In this document: positions 8,772 through 49,141 of the stretch, piece by piece
How the letters are laid out: each line of letters starts with the position of its first letter
How positions within the stretch are numbered: position 1 is the first letter of the stretch
Source of the DNA: Streptomyces sp. NBC_00490
Lineage (GTDB): Bacteria; Actinomycetota; Actinomycetes; Streptomycetales; Streptomycetaceae
Reading direction: 5' to 3'
Assembly: GCF_036013645.1 (NCBI RefSeq)
Contig: NZ_CP107869.1
Span: 10,044,001 to 10,108,000 of the forward strand
Length of the DNA stretch: 64,000 nucleotides
Program-made: the position numbers and the translations under genes
Notes under the pieces: generated by a model
Database searches by the model: none
Seen by the model: only the letters and a program-made list of their open reading frames with translations
What the model was told of the DNA's origin: nothing

Positions 8772-10061
8772 ATGAAGCTGAGCAACGTCCTTCGCCGTAC
8801 GTCCGCCGCACTGGCCGTCGGGGCGATGTCCCTGGGGCTGGTCACCGTCGCCGGCGGAGCCGCGCAGGCCGTCGCCTCGTGCACCGGGAACGTGTCGATC
8901 TACGGCACACTGGCGGACGGCCGACTGACGTACTCGCAGATCGAGCCGAACACCGGCGACCGCGTGAAGACACTCACCGGCCCGAACCTCGGTTTCACAC
9001 CGAAGGCGATGGCGACGCTCAACTTCAACACGGTGCTGGTCACTTCGACGGCCGGTGACCTCTACCGCGTCGACATCCAGACCAACAACACCGCCCTCGC
9101 GCTCGCCGGAGTCACCAAGATCTGGGACGGCGGCTGGACCTTCGACAAGATGGTCTACGACGGCGCCGGCCACCTCTACGGCACGGTCGACGGGCAACTT
9201 CACCAGTACCTGGTGTCGCAGGACAAGCCGTCCGGGTCGGCCCACATAGGCCAGCATGTCGTGATCGACACGGGCTTCGTCCTCAAGACGCTGGCCGCCG
9301 CGGGCGACGACCGCATCATCGCCTCCACCTCGGACGGACGCCTCCTCAGCTACAAGATCAACGGCGTGAACGACTGGGACCGCGCGGTGCTGAAGTCGAG
9401 CGGCTGGTCGGCGGTCGACTCGCTGTCCTCCCCGGGCGGGGGCCTCTACTACGGCCGCACCAACGGCGGCATGTACTGGTACCACGACTCCGACCCCACC
9501 GACGCGGACGGCTCCGACATCGCGTACCACCCGAGCGACCCGGTGGACGCCTCCGGCTGGACGCAGAGCCTGCTGTCGGCGTACGCGGACAACTGCGCCT
9601 ACGTGCCGCCGGCACCGCCGCACTCCGTGCAGGGCGGCACGATCTACCGCAGCGAGGTCATGACCCGGGCCAAGGACTGGTACAACCGCAACATCCAGTA
9701 CAGCCAGAGCGCCTACGCCACCGACATCGAGGGCGACGACACCTACCGCACCGACTGCTCCGGCTTCGTCTCCATGGCCTGGCACCTCACCTCCTCGCTG
9801 ACGACGCAGACCCTCGACAACGCCGCCGCGCAGATCTCCAAGGCCGACCTCCGGCCCGGCGACGCGCTGAACTCCAGCAGCGAGGGGCACGCGGTCCTCT
9901 TCGCGGGCTGGAAGGACCAGGACGCCGGCACCTTCTACTACTACTCCGAGGGCAGCCCGGACTCGGACATGAACTACCGGTCTGCGAACGCCTACAGCGG
10001 CACCATCGACAGCCACCCGGCCTCGGCGTACGTGGCCCTGCGCTACAACAAGATCGCCTGA
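8772..10061 (+). CDS. Secreted tachylectin-like propeller fused to an NlpC/P60-type peptidase
   Basis: The 429-aa product has a signal peptide (1-33), a tachylectin-2-like beta-propeller (about 36-270, with repeated strands such as GTLADGRLTYSQIEP, GHLYGTVDGQLHQY and GGLYYGRTNGGMYWY) and a C-terminal cysteine-peptidase-like domain (about 288-429). The catalytic Cys329 is in RTDCSGFVSMAW and His373 in EGHAVLFAGW, the NlpC/P60/CHAP pattern. It probably cuts peptidoglycan cross-links outside the membrane, with the propeller binding sugars. The ATG has AGGAGA upstream. The gene at 11187 encodes the same propeller on a different hydrolase. A terminator follows. Confidence 0.85.
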   Translation: MKLSNVLRRTSAALAVGAMSLGLVTVAGGAAQAVASCTGNVSIYGTLADGRLTYSQIEPNTGDRVKTLTGPNLGFTPKAMATLNFNTVLVTSTAGDLYRVDIQTNNTALALAGVTKIWDGGWTFDKMVYDGAGHLYGTVDGQLHQYLVSQDKPSGSAHIGQHVVIDTGFVLKTLAAAGDDRIIASTSDGRLLSYKINGVNDWDRAVLKSSGWSAVDSLSSPGGGLYYGRTNGGMYWYHDSDPTDADGSDIAYHPSDPVDASGWTQSLLSAYADNCAYVPPAPPHSVQGGTIYRSEVMTRAKDWYNRNIQYSQSAYATDIEGDDTYRTDCSGFVSMAWHLTSSLTTQTLDNAAAQISKADLRPGDALNSSSEGHAVLFAGWKDQDAGTFYYYSEGSPDSDMNYRSANAYSGTIDSHPASAYVALRYNKIA

Positions 10062-10088
10062 CGCCCCGGCCCCGCCACGTCGCCCCCG

Positions 10089-10116
10089 AGGGCCCCGCCG
10101 ACACCGGTGGGGCCCT
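10089..10116 (+). terminator. Terminator of the NlpC-type gene
   Basis: AGGGCCCC and GGGGCCCT pair around a 12-base loop and are followed by two further T residues, 28 bases after the stop codon. Confidence 0.75.
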
Positions 10117-10199
10117 TTAGGCATGCGCGCATGCCCGGCCCAAGGGCGGGGGAGCCCCTATGTCTTTGGTCAAGGTGGTCGGGTGACAGTGTGGCTGTC

Positions 10200-10361
10200 A
10201 TGAGTGATGACATGCCTGTTCGGGAGTCGGCGGGCGAGAGCATGCGGCCGTGCGACTTCTGTGGTCATCCGGTGGTGATGGACTCGGTCGACGAGCGGGA
10301 CTGCCCCGCGTGCGGCGAGACCGCTGAGGGTAAGCCAGCTGAGGTTGGCCGGAGTTCGTAG
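10200..10361 (+). CDS. Small zinc-ribbon-like protein, C terminus probably cut by an IS relic
   Basis: The frame encodes 53 residues with two CxxC knuckles (RPCDFCGH and RDCPACGE) about 20 residues apart, a likely zinc ribbon. The sequence after the second knuckle (GKPAEVGRSS) is read from DNA that belongs to the IS110 relic on the other strand, so the natural C terminus has probably been lost. The ribosome site is weak. Function unknown. Confidence 0.45.
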   Translation: MSDDMPVRESAGESMRPCDFCGHPVVMDSVDERDCPACGETAEGKPAEVGRSS

Positions 10362-10890
10362 GAGGTTCCGTCGCGGAGCATGGCGAAGAGGACGTCGGCC
10401 CGGCGTCTGGCGAGGCAAAGGTTCGCGAGGCCGGATTATCGGCTCATGCGGCGAACGCGGAGAGGGAGAAGGCTCTCTTGAGCTGCTTGTTTCCTCGTCG
10501 GGAGGGCTGTTCGCCGTGGATCGCGGACCCGGCGTTTCTGGTTGCTGGAGCGAGGTCGGCGTAAGCAGCGAGGTGGGCCGGGACGGAAATGCGGTGCCAT
10601 CGCCGATGTCGATGAAGATGCGAGCGCCGGTCCTGATGCCGATGCTGGGCATGGACATCAGGACCTCGGAGAGAGGGTTTGCCTCCACGAGTTGCTCGAT
10701 CCGGTGGGCCAGGAGTTTGCGCTGGTCGAGCACCGCCTGGAGCGAGCCGGCGAGGCTCGGGACGATCGCCGCGGCCGTGCCGGGAACGACGACGGTCTGC
10801 TCGTCGAGTGCGGTGAAGAAGTGCGGATCTGGGCCGGGGATCCGAACTGGTCCAGGGGCGAGTACCACGCCACCGCACTCACCCCGAGTG
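10331..10890 (-). pseudogene. IS110-family transposase relic (C-terminal half)
   Basis: Three minus-strand frames placed end to end rebuild the C-terminal part of an IS110-type transposase. HFFTALDEQTVVVPGT and LMSMPSIGIRTGARIF (the Transposase_20 helix-hairpin region) are in one frame. AAYADLAPATRNAGSAI and RRGNKQLKRAFSLSAFAA follow in the next, then LARRRADVLFAMLRDGT in the third. Frame changes fall near 10590 and 10444. The N-terminal DEDD catalytic domain is missing, so the element is dead. Confidence 0.8.
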
Positions 10891-11118
10891 GCAAGAAGAC
10901 TTTCGACCGGCGCCTGCCCAGATGCCGCTGGCATGCAGCGGTCTGTCTGTGCCTTCGGAGCTGGTGACACCACCCCCAGCCATGTACTCGGCGAGGAGAG
11001 GTTATGCCGACTCCGAAGGCCGGAAGCCCCGTCGCGGGCCTACGAAGACGGTAATGGGGGCGGCGCCGTACCTGCAGACGATGTCCACCCCCTCGGCCCC
11101 CCGCCCGCCCGCACGACG

Positions 11119-43396: not shown

Positions 43397-44758
43397 ATGG
43401 TCCACAGACATGCCGGAGTCGGCTGTGCCGCCTTGACGGTGCTCGGCGCGCTCGCGCTCGCGGGGCTGCCCCACACCGCAGCCGCGGAGCCCCCCGCGCC
43501 GACACCGGCACCCTCCGCCGCCGAGACGCTCGGCGCCGACAAGCCGTCGCCCGCACTCCTGAGCGCACTGGTGCGCGACCTGGGCCTGACCGACGCACAG
43601 GCCAGGACGCGCCTGGTGAACGAGGCCGAGGCGGGCACGCGCGCCGGCCGGCTCCAGAACGCGCTGGGCAAGCACTTCGCGGGAGCATGGGTGAGCGGCG
43701 CGACCTCCGCCGACCTGACCGTCGCGACCACCGACACCGCGGACGTCCCCGCCATCGAGGCCGGCGGGGCGAAGGCGGCGGTCGTCAAGACCGCGCTGGA
43801 GGACCTGAAGAAGGCCAAGACGAAGCTGGACGGCGCCGTGACCGGCAAGGCCCTCGACACGCCGGTGCGGTACGTCGACGTACGGACCAACCGGGTGACG
43901 GTCCAGGCGACGAGCCGTGCCGCCGCGGACACGCTCATCGCTGCCGCCGAAGTCGCCGCAGGGCTCGTGGACGTCAAGGTGTCGGCGGAGCAGCCCCGCG
44001 CCCTGCACGACGTGCGGGGCGGTGACGCCTTCTACATCGACGACCAGGCCCGCTGCTCCGTGGGATTCTCCATCACCAAGGGCGAGCAGCAGGGCTTCGC
44101 CACGGCCGGTCACTGCGGCAATGCGGGCGCCAAGACCACCGGCTTCAACAAGGTTGACCAGGGCACCTTCCAGAACTCCGTCTTCCCCGGCCAGGACATG
44201 GCCTGGGTGGGCGTCAACAGCGACTGGACCGCAACGCCCGCCGTCAAGGGGGAGGGTGACGAGAACGTGCAGACCGCCGGCTCGGTGAAGGCCCTGGCGG
44301 GCGCCGCGGTCTGCCGGTCCGGGTCGACCACCGGCTGGCACTGCGGAACGATCGAGCAGCACGACACCAGCGTCAGCTATGCCGAGGGCACCGTCGACGG
44401 TGTGACCCGCACCACGGTGTGCGCCGAGCCGGGCGACTCCGGCGGCTCCTACATCTCCGGAACCCAGGCGCAGGGCGTCACGTCGGGGGGTTCCGGTGAC
44501 TGCACGAGCGGCGGAACGACCTTCTACCAGCCGATCAACCCGGTGCTCAGCGCCTACGGCCTCACCCTCAGCACCAGCACGGTCGAGAGCGGTACGGCCG
44601 CGCCCCAGGACGCTCAGACCGGCTGGGCCGCGGGCCAGGTCTACGACACCGGAGCGCGCGTGACGTACGACGGCGTCTCCTACGAGTGCCTGCAGGCGCA
44701 TCAGGCGCAGAGCGCGTGGCAGCCCGCCCTCACTCCGGCCCTGTGGCAGCGCCTCTGA
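43397..44758 (+). CDS. Streptogrisin-type S1 protease with chitin-binding module
   Basis: The 453-aa preproprotein has a signal peptide (about 1-29), an alpha-lytic-type propeptide (about 35-190), a chymotrypsin-fold protease and a C-terminal CBM5/12 chitin-binding module (about 408-453, TGWAAGQVYDTGARVTYDG and LTPALWQRL). The triad is His in FATAGHCGNAG, Asp in FPGQDMAWV and Ser in EPGDSGGSYIS, with disulfide cysteines nearby. It resembles streptogrisin C. The ATG has GAGGAGA. A strong bidirectional hairpin follows. Confidence 0.94.
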   Translation: MVHRHAGVGCAALTVLGALALAGLPHTAAAEPPAPTPAPSAAETLGADKPSPALLSALVRDLGLTDAQARTRLVNEAEAGTRAGRLQNALGKHFAGAWVSGATSADLTVATTDTADVPAIEAGGAKAAVVKTALEDLKKAKTKLDGAVTGKALDTPVRYVDVRTNRVTVQATSRAAADTLIAAAEVAAGLVDVKVSAEQPRALHDVRGGDAFYIDDQARCSVGFSITKGEQQGFATAGHCGNAGAKTTGFNKVDQGTFQNSVFPGQDMAWVGVNSDWTATPAVKGEGDENVQTAGSVKALAGAAVCRSGSTTGWHCGTIEQHDTSVSYAEGTVDGVTRTTVCAEPGDSGGSYISGTQAQGVTSGGSGDCTSGGTTFYQPINPVLSAYGLTLSTSTVESGTAAPQDAQTGWAAGQVYDTGARVTYDGVSYECLQAHQAQSAWQPALTPALWQRL

Positions 44759-44769
44759 CGAGCGTGGCG

Positions 44770-44815
44770 ATGCCGCGGCGCGAGGTCCTCGGACTCGGTC
44801 CTCGCGCCGCGGCAT
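44770..44815. terminator. Bidirectional terminator hairpin
   Basis: ATGCCGCGGCGCGAGG (44770-44785) and its exact complement (44800-44815) form a perfect 16-bp stem with a 14-base loop. It separates the protease gene from the convergent serine-hydrolase operon. Confidence 0.85.
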
Positions 44816-44864
44816 GACGTCGGCCGCTCCCGGCCTGTCGCGCCCTACCTCGGTCGGTGTCGCG

Positions 44865-45962
44865 CTATGCCTCGGTCAGCAGCGCGTACGCGGTCGGTAT
44901 GAAGGCGTCGCGAGCGCGGAAGCGGCGCGTGCACATGGCGGCCAGCGCCGTTCCGGTGTCGGGCCTGAAGCCCAGGAAGGCCTGCTGCCCGAGGGTGGCC
45001 CCGCCGTGGAAGTACATCGGACCGCGCTCGGTAGGGTGCTGGAACCAGGCCACCGTGTGCACATGCCGGTGCCCGAGTCCGCGCCGGAGCACGGGGCGGC
45101 GTACCGCCCGCAGAGCGTCGGTCAGGGGCCGGCCCGCCGGGTCCAGGTGTGCTTCGAGGAACGTGAGCAGGTCGTGCGGGGTGGCCCGGACGGCGCCGGC
45201 CGCCTGGAAGCCGCCGACGGACAATGCGGGCGTGGGCGTCGTACCGTCCCTGAGGTGTCCGACGGCGTCTGTGTCCGTGCCGCCGGGGCACAGGGCGGTG
45301 CCGCTCAGCCGGAGCGGACGCAGCACCTGACCGGTGAGCAGTTCGTCCCACGGCGTCGCGGTCGCCGCCACCAGCGCGTGACCGAGCACGGCGACACCAA
45401 AGTTGGAGTAGTGCCAGCGGGTGCCGGGCCTGCGGCGCCGCCGATGGCGCAGAAAGGCGTCGATCACCCGCTCGGCCGGATAGCGGGCGTAAGGGTTGGT
45501 GCGCCAGGTGGGCAGCGCCCGGACGAAGAAGTCGGCAGGAAGGCCGGGCAGTCCGGAGGTGTGGGTGATCAGGTGGGCGAGCGTGACGGGGTCCGGGCCG
45601 GCCGGCCGAGCCGGGTCCAGAATCGTGGCGGCCGGCTCGGCCGCAGACAACAGACCCGTCTGCGTCAGGTGGGCCAGCAGCAGTCCGGTGAACGTCTTGG
45701 AAGCGGACCCCATCTCGTAGCGCAGTTCGTGGCGCGCGACGGACGGGGGCGGCGCGCTGCCTCCACATCGCACCGTGCGGCGACCGTGCCGGGAGAACGC
45801 GAAGACGACGTCGGGTGCGTCCACGGCGCCGACGGCCGCGTCGAGCCGCCGCACCACGTCGCCGTCGGCATCTGCGGATGCGTCCATTGGCGGGCCACCG
45901 GGCGGGAGCACGCCGGTGGCGCCGAGCGGATCACCCGGCCAGGGGACGGGCCGCGTGGTCAT
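44865..45962 (-). CDS. Serine hydrolase (beta-lactamase/class C family), cytoplasmic
   Basis: The 365-aa product has the three class C motifs: SxxK in MGSASKTFTGLLLAH, YxN in WHYSNFGVAVLGHAL and an HGG-type third motif in MYFHGGATLGQQAFLG. There is no signal peptide or membrane span, so it should act inside the cell, unlike true beta-lactamases. It is the last gene of the precursor-peptide operon and its ATG overlaps the previous stop (ATGA). A role as a peptidase, esterase or acyltransferase on the peptide product is plausible, because relatives act on peptides and D-amino acid amides. Self-protection is another option. Confidence 0.85.
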   Translation of the reverse strand: MTTRPVPWPGDPLGATGVLPPGGPPMDASADADGDVVRRLDAAVGAVDAPDVVFAFSRHGRRTVRCGGSAPPPSVARHELRYEMGSASKTFTGLLLAHLTQTGLLSAAEPAATILDPARPAGPDPVTLAHLITHTSGLPGLPADFFVRALPTWRTNPYARYPAERVIDAFLRHRRRRRPGTRWHYSNFGVAVLGHALVAATATPWDELLTGQVLRPLRLSGTALCPGGTDTDAVGHLRDGTTPTPALSVGGFQAAGAVRATPHDLLTFLEAHLDPAGRPLTDALRAVRRPVLRRGLGHRHVHTVAWFQHPTERGPMYFHGGATLGQQAFLGFRPDTGTALAAMCTRRFRARDAFIPTAYALLTEA

Positions 45963-46879
45963 GCCGGTGTGCGCACCAGCCGCGCCATGGCGCGGGAGGT
46001 GGCCAGTACGGAGGCGAAGGCGGCGACCAGTGTCGAGTGGTAGACGATGTCGAACACCTCGTCGGGGTCGCCCTCGGGCATGGTGCGGATGGCGGGCATC
46101 GCGCCGTCGGGCTGCTGGGCGGCGGCGAAGCCCTCCCAGGCCCGCTCGTCCCAGGTGGGGCGGGGCAGGCAGGCATCGACGACGAGCAGTTCGCCGAGCA
46201 GGTCCCAGCGTTGCAGGTCCAGCCAGTCGTCCAGCCAGGCCGGCAGCCAGGTCGCGAGATAGTCGGCGATGTGTGGTGGCAGACCGTCGGGACGCTCTCC
46301 CCAGTTGGTCAGGTGGAAGACGGTGTGGGTGATGTCGTAGGCGGTGTGCCCCTCGACCGTCCAGGGTTCGGGGGTGCGCCCCAGCCATGTCTCGGGGACG
46401 ATGTCGGCTTCCGGCGGCCGGGGCGGCAGGCCGAAACGGCGCTGGTACGCGGACAGGCCGAGGCGGCGGACCGGCGCCATCTCGAGGGCGGCGTGGCTCT
46501 CCAGACGCTGGTTGAGCAGGAAGGCCTGCTCGGCCTCGGGACAGCTGTAGCCCAGCTCCTTGAACGGGAGGTACACCTCGAAGGGGACGGGAGACAAGGG
46601 CTCGGTCGCCTGGCCGAGCACCAGCATCCGGCCGCCGTCCAGCGTGTGACGCCAGGCATGGTCGACCAACTGCCGTGCCAGCTGGGCCTGTCGCGATCCG
46701 GCGACGCCTTCGCGGAACAACACCTTGCAGATCAGGGCCAGTTCGGCGACCGGTTTGAAGCGCTCCAGAAAGCCGATCTCGGGATCGACGTCCGGCTCCA
46801 GCCGGAAACCGTCGCGGTGGGCATACAGCCACTCGAGGGCGCCGGCCCCGACGTTGTGCACGAGACGGGTGCTGGTCAT
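45959..46879 (-). CDS. Uncharacterised helical protein, paralogue of the upstream gene
   Basis: The 306-aa product shares with its neighbour at 46876 the N-terminal AHRDGFRL, a central YDITHTVFHLTNWG, the tryptophan-rich WLPAWLDDWLDLQRWDLLGE and a C-terminal YHSTLVAAFASVL preceded by QQPDGAMP. Conserved His, Asp and Trp positions suggest an enzyme rather than a structural protein. The mainly helical prediction with QxxDG near the end recalls alpha/alpha-barrel folds, but I recognise no family with certainty (it may correspond to DUF6895). No signal peptide. AAGGAGG precedes the ATG, which overlaps the upstream stop by four bases. Confidence 0.75.
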   Translation of the reverse strand: MTSTRLVHNVGAGALEWLYAHRDGFRLEPDVDPEIGFLERFKPVAELALICKVLFREGVAGSRQAQLARQLVDHAWRHTLDGGRMLVLGQATEPLSPVPFEVYLPFKELGYSCPEAEQAFLLNQRLESHAALEMAPVRRLGLSAYQRRFGLPPRPPEADIVPETWLGRTPEPWTVEGHTAYDITHTVFHLTNWGERPDGLPPHIADYLATWLPAWLDDWLDLQRWDLLGELLVVDACLPRPTWDERAWEGFAAAQQPDGAMPAIRTMPEGDPDEVFDIVYHSTLVAAFASVLATSRAMARLVRTPA

Positions 46880-47850
46880 CTCAACCCTCCTTGTCCACTC
46901 CGCGCCGCCGCGCCGTCCTCGACGGCCCCGCGCAGACGGTTGATGGTCAGCACGGCGGCGAAGACCGTCATCAGTGTCGAGTGGTAGCAGTCGATGAAGT
47001 CGTGCGCGCCGCCATGGCCGCCGCGGCCGGCGCCGACCTCCGGGACGGCCCCGGAGTCGTCCTGCGCCACCGCGAGCCTCGCCCAGGCGTCCTGGAACAG
47101 GGCGCGCTCCGGCGGACCCGGCAGACTGCCCGCCACGGCCAGGAGTTCGCAGCTCAGGTCCCACTGCTCGTCCTCCAGGCAGGTGTCGAGCCAGGACGGA
47201 AGCCAGTGCCGGAGGTAGGCCGCCACCGGCGGGGGTACGGCCTCGGGGGTCCGGCCCCAGTCGGTGAGGTGGTAGACCACATGGGTAAGCGTGTAGCCGG
47301 CGGCTCCCTCGAAGGTCCATGGCTCCGGCAGACCGGCGAGCCAGGTGCGTCGCAAGGCCTCAGGCAGGTCCGCGTGTTCCGGGATGCCGCTGCGGCGCTC
47401 GGAGTTGAGCACGCTCAGGCGCCGGTTCGGTTGCTGCTCCGTCACCTGCCAGCTGCGGGTGCGGGCCACTGTCGTGGTGGCGCTCTCGTAGCCGGCGTGG
47501 CGCAGGCCGGCCGACGCGAACGCCGCGTAGATCTCCAGCGGGTACGTCGCGAAGGGTTCGAGGCGCTGCAACTCGACGAAAAGGGCGCCGCGCCCGGTCT
47601 GTTGCCACGCGAACGCCAACAGGTCGGAGGCGGTCACATGGAGCGGGTCGGCCGGATCGGTGTGCCGACGTACACAGACGCACACCTGGGCCAGCTCGCC
47701 GAGGGGTTTCCAGGTGAGGTTCACATTGCCACGTTCGGCCAGCGCGTCCTCGCCGAGCCGGAATCCGTCGCGGTGGGCGGACACCCAGGCCAACGCGGCC
47801 TCGGCCATCCTCCGGACCTGGCGCGCCTCCTGGGTCTCATGCGCCGTCAC
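46876..47850 (-). CDS. Uncharacterised helical protein, paralogue of the downstream gene
   Basis: The 324-aa product carries the same marks as its neighbour: SAHRDGFRL, then YTLTHVVYHLTDWGRTPEAV, WLPSWLDTCLEDEQWDLSCE and CYHSTLMTVFAAVLTINRL. It has more cysteines (VCVCVRRH, DTCLED, DLSCEL, DFIDCYH). The GTG start overlaps the stop of the 236-aa gene as GTGA, and its own stop overlaps the next ATG. Two diverged copies side by side suggest a heterodimer or two successive steps on one substrate, presumably the 62-aa peptide. Function unknown. Confidence 0.75.
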   Translation of the reverse strand: MTAHETQEARQVRRMAEAALAWVSAHRDGFRLGEDALAERGNVNLTWKPLGELAQVCVCVRRHTDPADPLHVTASDLLAFAWQQTGRGALFVELQRLEPFATYPLEIYAAFASAGLRHAGYESATTTVARTRSWQVTEQQPNRRLSVLNSERRSGIPEHADLPEALRRTWLAGLPEPWTFEGAAGYTLTHVVYHLTDWGRTPEAVPPPVAAYLRHWLPSWLDTCLEDEQWDLSCELLAVAGSLPGPPERALFQDAWARLAVAQDDSGAVPEVGAGRGGHGGAHDFIDCYHSTLMTVFAAVLTINRLRGAVEDGAAARSGQGGLR

Positions 47851-48557
47851 ACCGGCACTCCGGCCCGCATCAGCTGCGCGGCCTGGACCTGCAGCGCCAC
47901 GCGTGCGTCGGCGCGGCCCATCTGGGCCACGAACTCCAGGCCGGTGTCCAGCCCGAGGGTTTCCGGCACGTCGTCCAGGAGGACCAGCCAGCGTCCCGCT
48001 CCGGCCGCCTGGAGCCAGTCGCGGCGGCGGACTGCCCGGACGAATCCCCGGGAGACGTCGACAGGGCGGCCGCGTGCCACGCGGGCCACCGCGCAGTCCT
48101 CGTCGGGGAGTGCGAGCGGGGCGAGCACCGCGAGTTGGTGGGTCAGGAACTGCCACGGGGCATCCTCGAGCCATGTCGCGTCGGGCTCGGCGTCGTGGTC
48201 CCAGTCGCCGTCGAGGGACGCGTCCAGCCGCAGGAGTGCTCGTCTCATGGCCCAGTGACTCCACACCGAGGTGGGAGAGGCGTCCGCGGGTGGCGGGTAG
48301 GCGTGCACGGCTTTGCTGAACATGCTGAGATCGTCGGACTCCGGGGGCGCGTTGCGCAGGGCGCTCGGCAGGACGGCATCGGCTCCCATCACCCGTATGG
48401 CGGCAAGGGCCAGACCGGCGGTCACCTCGGGGTCGTCCCCCTCCGCGAGGCTGCCCGTGAGCCGAAACGGGTCCCCGCTCCGGAGAGCGGAGACCAGTTC
48501 CGTCGTAAGGCCCTGCACTGCGCCCGCGAGGCGGGTCGAAGTGCCTGACTTGTCCAT
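47847..48557 (-). CDS. 236-aa protein of unknown function in the precursor-peptide operon
   Basis: The product is a soluble, mainly helical protein with no recognisable domain. Notable stretches are LTTELVSALRSGDPFRLTGS, SVWSHWAMRRALLRLDASLD and APWQFLTHQLAVLAPLALPD. It begins 13 bases after the small peptide gene with GGGAG upstream and overlaps the next gene by four bases, so it is the first protein partner of the peptide. It could be a peptide-binding chaperone, a maturation enzyme or an immunity factor. Confidence 0.7.
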   Translation of the reverse strand: MDKSGTSTRLAGAVQGLTTELVSALRSGDPFRLTGSLAEGDDPEVTAGLALAAIRVMGADAVLPSALRNAPPESDDLSMFSKAVHAYPPPADASPTSVWSHWAMRRALLRLDASLDGDWDHDAEPDATWLEDAPWQFLTHQLAVLAPLALPDEDCAVARVARGRPVDVSRGFVRAVRRRDWLQAAGAGRWLVLLDDVPETLGLDTGLEFVAQMGRADARVALQVQAAQLMRAGVPV

Positions 48558-48570
48558 TCGGTTTCTCCCG

Positions 48571-48759
48571 TCAGCCCTTCTTCGGACGTGGCGTCGGAGG
48601 CGACAGCAGGATGTTGCTCGACGAGCTCGTCAGGGCGAGCGCCGCGCACTGGCGGCTGTCGCGGTAGTAGCCGTCGGCCTCGACCGGGTCGAGAGCCGCC
48701 TCCACATCGATCCCTTGGACCTCGATGAGGTCATCGAGCAGAAACTCGGTGGCAGACAT
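48571..48759 (-). CDS. 62-aa precursor-like peptide (candidate RiPP precursor)
   Basis: The peptide begins MSATEFLLDDLIEVQGIDVE. Residues 1-30 hold nine acidic and no basic residues, like a RiPP leader with a hydrophobic LLxDLIEV recognition stretch. The C-terminal half is different: Tyr-Tyr at 31-32, a single Cys38, Ser45-Ser48 in a row, and a basic Pro-rich end PPTPRPKKG. No signal peptide. The ribosome site AAAGGAG is the strongest of the operon, fitting a product needed in excess. It is the first gene of a five-gene unit whose other members all overlap or nearly touch. Start at ATG 48759; a longer upstream frame has no ribosome site. Confidence 0.75.
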   Translation of the reverse strand: MSATEFLLDDLIEVQGIDVEAALDPVEADGYYRDSRQCAALALTSSSSNILLSPPTPRPKKG

Positions 48760-48910
48760 ACCACCATCTCCTTTGTGAGAGATGTGCTTGTCTTCTCCCA
48801 TGTCACCGCATCTGGCCGACTTATGCAAAAAAGATTGGTATGTCCCGAATGGTCTGATCTTCAATTTCCTGCGTGCGAGTAGTTGAACGACTGACGTCGT
48901 CCGGTGTTCA
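48760..48910 (-). promoter_or_regulatory. AT-rich promoter region of the precursor-peptide operon
   Basis: About 150 bases with clearly lower GC than the surroundings, including TTATGCAAAAAAGATTGG at 48820-48837. This must contain the operon promoter. I cannot fix its -10 and -35 elements. Confidence 0.5.
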
Positions 48911-49141
48911 ACCGCCGGTCAGGCCCGGGCGGGACGGTGGCGCGGACCGAGGGGTGCGTGCCACCGTCCCGAGCTGCGGGATGCGCGCCCCACACTCATG
49001 ATCGTTCTGCTCGGCCTCACCCAAGATGGAGCGCTCTGGAACCGTCCCGGCGAAGGCCGAGTAAGGGCGGCAGGCCGTGATGGGTGCTGGGGCGGGGGCG
49101 CCTGACAGGATGTCCGATCGACCCTTCTGAAGGAGACGGTC

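Follow-up and report, generated by a model that had tools for sequence, protein, structure and literature searches.

The operon and its genes

We describe here five coupled genes on the minus strand of Streptomyces sp. NBC_00490 (contig NZ_CP107869.1), at positions 44865-48759 of a 64,000-nucleotide stretch (contig positions 10,044,001 to 10,108,000) that is referred to as the window throughout. They encode a short peptide, a protein of 236 amino acids (U236), two paralogous proteins (A and B) and a serine hydrolase. A first-pass annotation of this DNA had proposed them as a candidate operon for a ribosomally synthesised and post-translationally modified peptide (RiPP), and its five reading frames, their positions and their joints were all borne out. 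There are 13 bases between the genes for the peptide and U236, and each of the following joints is a 4-base overlap (47850/47847, 46879/46876 and 45962/45959). The features are listed below in window coordinates.

48760..48774, minus strand: ribosome-binding stretch AAAGGAG, 5' of the peptide gene, alike in most aligned orthologues
48571..48759, minus strand: candidate precursor peptide of 62 amino acids, type P1, with an acidic variable N-terminal half, an EADGxYRDSRxC block, a short hydrophobic/Ser segment and a near-invariant LLLSPPTPRPKKG tail
47847..48557, minus strand: U236, 236 amino acids, with an all-helical model and no family above cut-off; possibly a peptide-binding partner
46876..47850, minus strand: DUF6895 paralogue A, 324 amino acids, GTG start, predicted peptide epimerase
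45959..46879, minus strand: DUF6895 paralogue B, 306 amino acids, predicted peptide epimerase with an (alpha/alpha) toroid model
44865..45962, minus strand: S12/class C-type serine hydrolase, 365 amino acids, with SASK, YSN and HGG motifs, which may act on the epimerised peptide

The ribosome site that had been noted ahead of the peptide is indeed present, and a similar purine-rich, AAAGGAG-like site precedes the gene in most of 18 aligned orthologues. The "AT-rich promoter" of the first-pass annotation was an impression only, as a scan of 44700-49000 for sigma-70-type promoters gave 0 matches (shuffled mean 0.1). A TTGAA block about 100 bases 5' of the peptide start, which ranks with the most conserved parts of the upstream region when 48760-49019 is aligned with 18 orthologues, may represent a site for a regulator or a sigma factor. 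A terminator scan also returned an 8-pair stem with a loop of 4 that spans the start codon of the peptide (48747-48766, minus strand); it might hide the start or be meaningless.

Conservation and distribution

The five-gene operon recurs far beyond chance. When genome contigs were scanned with paralogue B, 49 related loci were obtained, of which Streptomyces accounts for 47 and Actinacidiphila for two. The order U236, paralogue A, paralogue B, hydrolase is kept in 48 of these, and the peptide gene stands at the front of the operon in 46. Two of the loci lacking it (L012 and L015) begin at a contig end inside U236, and the third, L045, is a true exception that carries a lone DUF6895 gene. Simple gene calls on these loci and two plasmid loci revealed no conserved exporter among the neighbours and no further neighbour family in more than 17 of the 51. 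One such neighbour in the window is the protein encoded at 43397-44758, convergent with the operon, whose family is annotated elsewhere as alpha-lytic protease; this family lies near the operon in 17 of the 51 related loci, and in 14 of these its gene is on the opposite strand, which is likely to reflect lineage synteny.

A minimal version of the operon also exists, with a single DUF6895 paralogue and a different peptide (peptide-U236-DUF6895-hydrolase). It was found in 14 of 16 stretches around seemingly unpaired Streptomyces DUF6895 genes, two of them (G457 and G630) from genomes with three matches; the 14 include L074, where the peptide was read by eye and U236 is split in the gene calls. 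As to the two misses, L080 is cut off by a contig edge and L078 belongs to another type. A class-wide sample (15 genomes) yielded the minimal operon in 8 of 16 stretches. The same count of eight was reached among 17 stretches from Streptomyces genomes with lower-scoring DUF6895 matches, a set chosen partly for divergence, and one of these eight has two DUF6895 genes. A short peptide with an acidic block thus accompanies DUF6895 homologues in 46/49, 14/16, 8/16 and 8/17 loci, which is about half or more in three of the four sets, and outside the set of 49 the misses are mostly other DUF6895 subfamilies or contig ends. This is the outcome of the neighbourhood search that the first-pass annotation had proposed for the two paralogues. 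The minimal operon is also carried by a Kitasatospora plasmid (L082), in which the S12 gene (9927-10945) is apparently disrupted in frame and annotated as a short piece only.

A search with the peptide retrieved 190 relatives; the best 120 of these are mostly 59-63 amino acids long, and the named ones are from Streptomyces. The source genome has only two DUF6895 genes at E<=0.001. DUF6895 matches occur in 114 of 246 sampled Streptomyces genomes; in wider samples the counts are 32 of 394 genomes at class level and 7 of 396 at phylum level, with one weak match among the seven. In a plasmid collection 5 records match, namely two from Streptomyces, one from Kitasatospora and, more distantly, one each from Cupriavidus and Pseudalkalibacillus. 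U236, which serves as a marker of the operon, matches 98 of the 246 Streptomyces genomes, over a third of the sampled species, and this is a lower bound, as its profile missed at least five genomes in which the operon was seen directly. DUF6895 is present in 97 of the 98 U236-positive genomes, the exception (G404) being a marginal match. The pattern, in which tailoring genes stay coupled to a short precursor gene from one genome to the next, is that of RiPP systems in general. We conclude that the operon is real, widespread and RiPP-like; the literature searches that were made turned up no description of it.

The candidate precursor peptide

The peptides fall into three types that are built alike: the N-terminal half is variable and is followed by a short acidic block, a brief run rich in Leu, Ala and Gly, the motif S-(x)-P and finally a charged tail. 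Type 1 has 48 members (the window included), type 2 has 25 and type 3 has 5, and the tails differ among the three. Of the 46 type-1 locus peptides, 44 contain RD(S/T)R(E/Q)C and 42 contain SPPTPRP, from which the others depart by one residue. Type 2 is characterised by SDAPxYxPEA-like and SPKEPKEPK-like stretches, and type 3 by a longer C-terminal tail resembling PIED...QNL.... The window peptide has a net charge of -9 over residues 1-32 and +4 over the remainder, and it matches no family in Pfam or among the NCBIfam matches listed.

Much had been made of the cysteine in the initial description of the peptide. The residue is present in 47 of 48 type-1 peptides (three shortened gene calls that do contain Cys are included, and L040 lacks it) but occurs after residue 25 in 0 of 25 type-2 peptides. 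Cysteine-based (thioether) chemistry, considered as the core step, is disfavoured by these type-2 peptides without the Cys.

An unexpected result came from the pattern of constraint. The peptide frame is conserved: over 17 sequences of the window's clade (two of other length were left out), its pooled ratio of nonsynonymous to synonymous polymorphism (pN/pS) is 0.56. By segment, the ratio is 0.73 for residues 2-32, 0.55 for residues 33-49 and 0.10 for residues 50-62. A conserved leader followed by a variable tail had been predicted, and the reverse is found, as the N-terminal half varies and the C-terminal tail, the most constrained segment, is nearly fixed. The inverted constraint lowers the case for a classical leader/core layout, not the case that the peptide works like a RiPP.

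The proteins encoded downstream

The first-pass annotation had spoken of unknown enzymes, and this holds for U236, which has no family above cut-off in Pfam or among the NCBIfam matches listed, but not for the two paralogues, which belong to a family with a reported lasso-peptide epimerase. Both are members of Pfam DUF6895 (PF21836), with scores of 296.2 and 279.5 bits (cut-off 23.8) over profile positions 2-288 of 289, and the motifs AHRDGFRL, HLT(D/N)WG and YHSTL are indeed common to the two. The epimerase report is known to us by its title (Shi et al., ACS Catal. 2026). Paralogue B is modelled as an (alpha/alpha) toroid, a fold common to epimerases, terpene cyclases and unsaturated glycosyl hydrolases. 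In the DUF6895 proteins of the core operon, two His residues as well as Asp/Glu are invariant or almost so, and this polar set is kept in 7 of 7 distant members of the family tested. In paralogue B, the candidate catalytic residues are Y181, H185, D226, E230 and H281.

The model of U236 consists of helices only, with no strand (predicted local distance difference test score, pLDDT, 90.0), and the 39 aligned sequences have in common a basic stretch that hardly varies (RGFVRAVRRRDW in the window). The RiPP recognition element (RRE) type of peptide-recognition domain is a winged-helix fold with beta strands, and the all-helical model of U236 does not fit this kind.

The hydrolase contains a single Pfam domain, Beta-lactamase (PF00144, 1.2e-45), over residues 44-361. 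Among 74 hydrolases, SxxK is found in 71, YxN in 69 with YST in a further 4, and HxG in all 74; the misses are gaps, three for SxxK (two from gene calls that are shortened, one from the short L082 piece) and one for YxN/YST. Domain and motifs are thus those of an S12 serine peptidase or hydrolase, with Ser86 as the predicted active-site serine, and the earlier label "class C" was right at the level of the fold. HxG is the form that the third motif takes in DD- and D-peptidases, KTG being that of beta-lactamases. No signal peptide was evident by eye in the 12 hydrolase N-termini inspected. There are 112 solved relatives at E<=0.001 (best 4.5e-14), and the best 60 of the 112 are mostly named beta-lactamases but also include S12 and D-alanyl-D-alanine carboxypeptidases, ClbP, an alkaline D-peptidase and a D-amino acid amidase. 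As D-specific enzymes are among the solved relatives, D-specificity of the operon hydrolase is plausible.

As noted at first pass, the operon holds no enzyme of the LanM, YcaO or radical SAM kind: its five proteins give only DUF6895 and Beta-lactamase above the Pfam cut-off. No class-defining lanthipeptide, sactipeptide or YcaO enzyme was found among them in Pfam or, among the NCBIfam matches listed (25 of 42), in NCBIfam, and there is no further conserved neighbour. The lasso B protease and C cyclase families were likewise not found in the five operon proteins, to which the scan for lasso families in the window was confined, and again no conserved neighbour was seen.

DUF6895 in other RiPP clusters

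Outside the core operon, 6 of 21 loci place DUF6895 in three further RiPP contexts: a LanB/LanC, a radical-SAM/sactipeptide-type and an NHLP-exporter context. In L115 (6367-15999) the gene lies in a class I lanthipeptide-like cluster with LanB N- and C-terminal domains, a LanC-like protein, a double ABC exporter, a P450 and a methyltransferase. In L125 (3087-13441) and its sisters L126, L127 and L128, all from Streptomyces, two DUF6895 genes flank a radical SAM gene, and these clusters further hold a second radical SAM gene, a prolyl oligopeptidase, an MFS exporter, a weakly matched glycosyltransferase and short peptides, of which one ends in GCIVNNSSDLS and one (in L127) has an aroma-sacti domain. 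Family-library scans covered L125 and the L127 aroma-sacti peptide, and the other members were likened by gene order and N-termini. We regard these four as a second, different DUF6895 RiPP system. The third context is provided by the Actinacidiphila locus L045 (605-8921), where a lone B-type DUF6895, apparently a recruited copy, adjoins an NHLP exporter pair and a 74-residue peptide with, by eye, a double-Gly-like leader; a 170-residue metallophosphoesterase-looking protein is also encoded there.

The other 15 of the 21 loci, in which few neighbours were scanned, showed no evident RiPP gene; they include weak or partial DUF6895 matches (L120, L121 and L132) and one locus (L116) whose DUF6895 frame is missing from the gene calls.

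A longer DUF6895 protein of 556-593 amino acids is encoded at L078 (6833-8774), L133 (7444-9488), L138 (6860-8772) and L140 (7389-9319), preceded in each case by a highly similar protein of 65-72 amino acids (ALDFLRTSGLVDL...YVLAWERYVLVVA and alike) that is possibly a partner rather than a precursor. Similar short proteins were seen by eye before DUF6895 in L084 (Bacillota) and L117.

Interpretation

Of several possible explanations we favour, as the probable one, an operon for an epimerised RiPP that is modified by the DUF6895 proteins and matured by the S12-type hydrolase, perhaps in a D-specific manner. A precursor with its tailoring set, as first proposed, remains the best reading of the locus, since the operon and its peptide recur together across loci and DUF6895 sits in three other kinds of clear RiPP cluster. 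In this process, the 62-residue peptide would be the precursor, translated first from a good ribosome site, and its variable acidic N-terminal half would act as the leader, perhaps held by helical U236 via the conserved basic patch. The two DUF6895 proteins would each turn L-residues of the precursor into D-residues, at sites that differ between the two and with no need of a redox cofactor, presumably by two-base proton transfer in the active site of the alpha/alpha toroid; this activity is suggested by the family member reported as an epimerase, by the fold and by the conserved His, Asp and Glu residues. To judge from its fold class, the S12-type hydrolase would then cleave, or possibly join, the peptide at an epimerised residue.

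A more specific version, which we put forward tentatively and think rather unlikely, is a stereochemical gate: DUF6895 would write D-residues into the LLL-S-P segment, and a D-specific S12 enzyme would cleave or macrocyclise only there, so that epimerisation itself would license maturation. The types rich in Leu, Ala and Gly could then give a short D/L-alternating, gramicidin-like membrane peptide, with the window's type being more polar and having a fixed Pro/Lys tail. As there is no conserved exporter and the tail is fixed, an internal or signalling role is as likely for the product as an antibiotic one, and the wide spread of the operon, together with the fixed tail, hints at a role for the producer itself (signalling, for example) and not at a strain-specific antibiotic.

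The strongest competitor, though unlikely, accepts a RiPP but has DUF6895 catalyse another reaction in the toroid (such as elimination, cyclisation or isomerisation), so that D-amino acids would not be the main feature of the product. The toroid does occur in terpene cyclases and unsaturated glycosyl hydrolases too, the family occurs in chemically different RiPP clusters and just one member is reported, by title, as an epimerase; the polar set kept in all seven distant members, however, suggests one shared chemistry. It is quite unlikely that no RiPP is made and that the operon does an unrelated job, with the peptide serving its enzymes as an inhibitor, a chaperone or a small fixed subunit. 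An almost invariant tail within the clade and the lack of a conserved exporter are what such a subunit would lead one to expect, and the two-domain DUF6895 proteins elsewhere do follow a structural-looking protein of 65-72 residues. Yet the N-terminal half and the segment before the tail vary, the three types of peptide are unlike one another in tail and in composition and, in the loci compared, are paired with different enzyme clades, and other DUF6895 genes do belong to clear RiPP clusters. It is very improbable that the peptide is a secreted signal or bacteriocin, with general proteases doing the processing and the S12 enzyme serving self-protection or peptidoglycan remodelling and not maturation: S12 enzymes do include peptidoglycan DD-carboxypeptidases and beta-lactamases, but the inspected N-termini show no evident signal peptide, the hydrolase gene overlaps its upstream gene by 4 bases in the window, and no locus was seen that has peptide, U236 and DUF6895 yet lacks a hydrolase gene (the L082 copy looks disrupted).

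If the epimerised-RiPP interpretation is correct, the lack of the usual marker enzymes has caused a family of D-amino-acid peptides to go unnoticed, and this in Streptomyces, the best-mined source of natural products. DUF6895 and the S12 hydrolase would then form a new pair of enzymes that makes D-containing peptides and afterwards cuts them, with no cofactor.

Comparison with known systems

In epipeptides and proteusins, D-residues are put into a ribosomal peptide by radical-SAM epimerases such as YydG. The five operon proteins differ from these systems in including no radical SAM family, and the radical SAM protein beside DUF6895 in L125 has a weak, below-cut-off similarity to YydG. The lasso-peptide epimerase MslH has a fold different from the DUF6895 toroid. 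According to its title, the report on MslH describes the metal-dependent epimerase of lasso peptide MS-271 (PMC10406935); acid/base epimerisation of a ribosomal peptide by DUF6895 would be the same kind of reaction, but the metal dependence of that title contrasts with an enzyme modelled as an all-helical toroid. A further parallel is the DUF6895 lasso-peptide epimerase named in the title of Shi et al. (ACS Catal. 2026), which is of the same Pfam family as the paralogues; unlike that lasso system, the operon combines two paralogues with U236 and an S12 hydrolase, and its five proteins include no lasso protease or cyclase family.

For the last step, the operon hydrolase resembles ClbP and other S12 D-peptidases in its S12 fold and its Ser-Lys-Tyr-His motifs. 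In the colibactin system, the product is released when an S12 enzyme cleaves beside a D-residue. The operon hydrolase differs from ClbP in having no membrane anchor or evident signal peptide. A related Ser/Lys hydrolase domain is used for peptide cyclisation in the thioesterases of the penicillin-binding-protein type, such as SurE (PMC11735501); the operon hydrolase of 365 residues differs in that it gives one Pfam domain, over residues 44-361.

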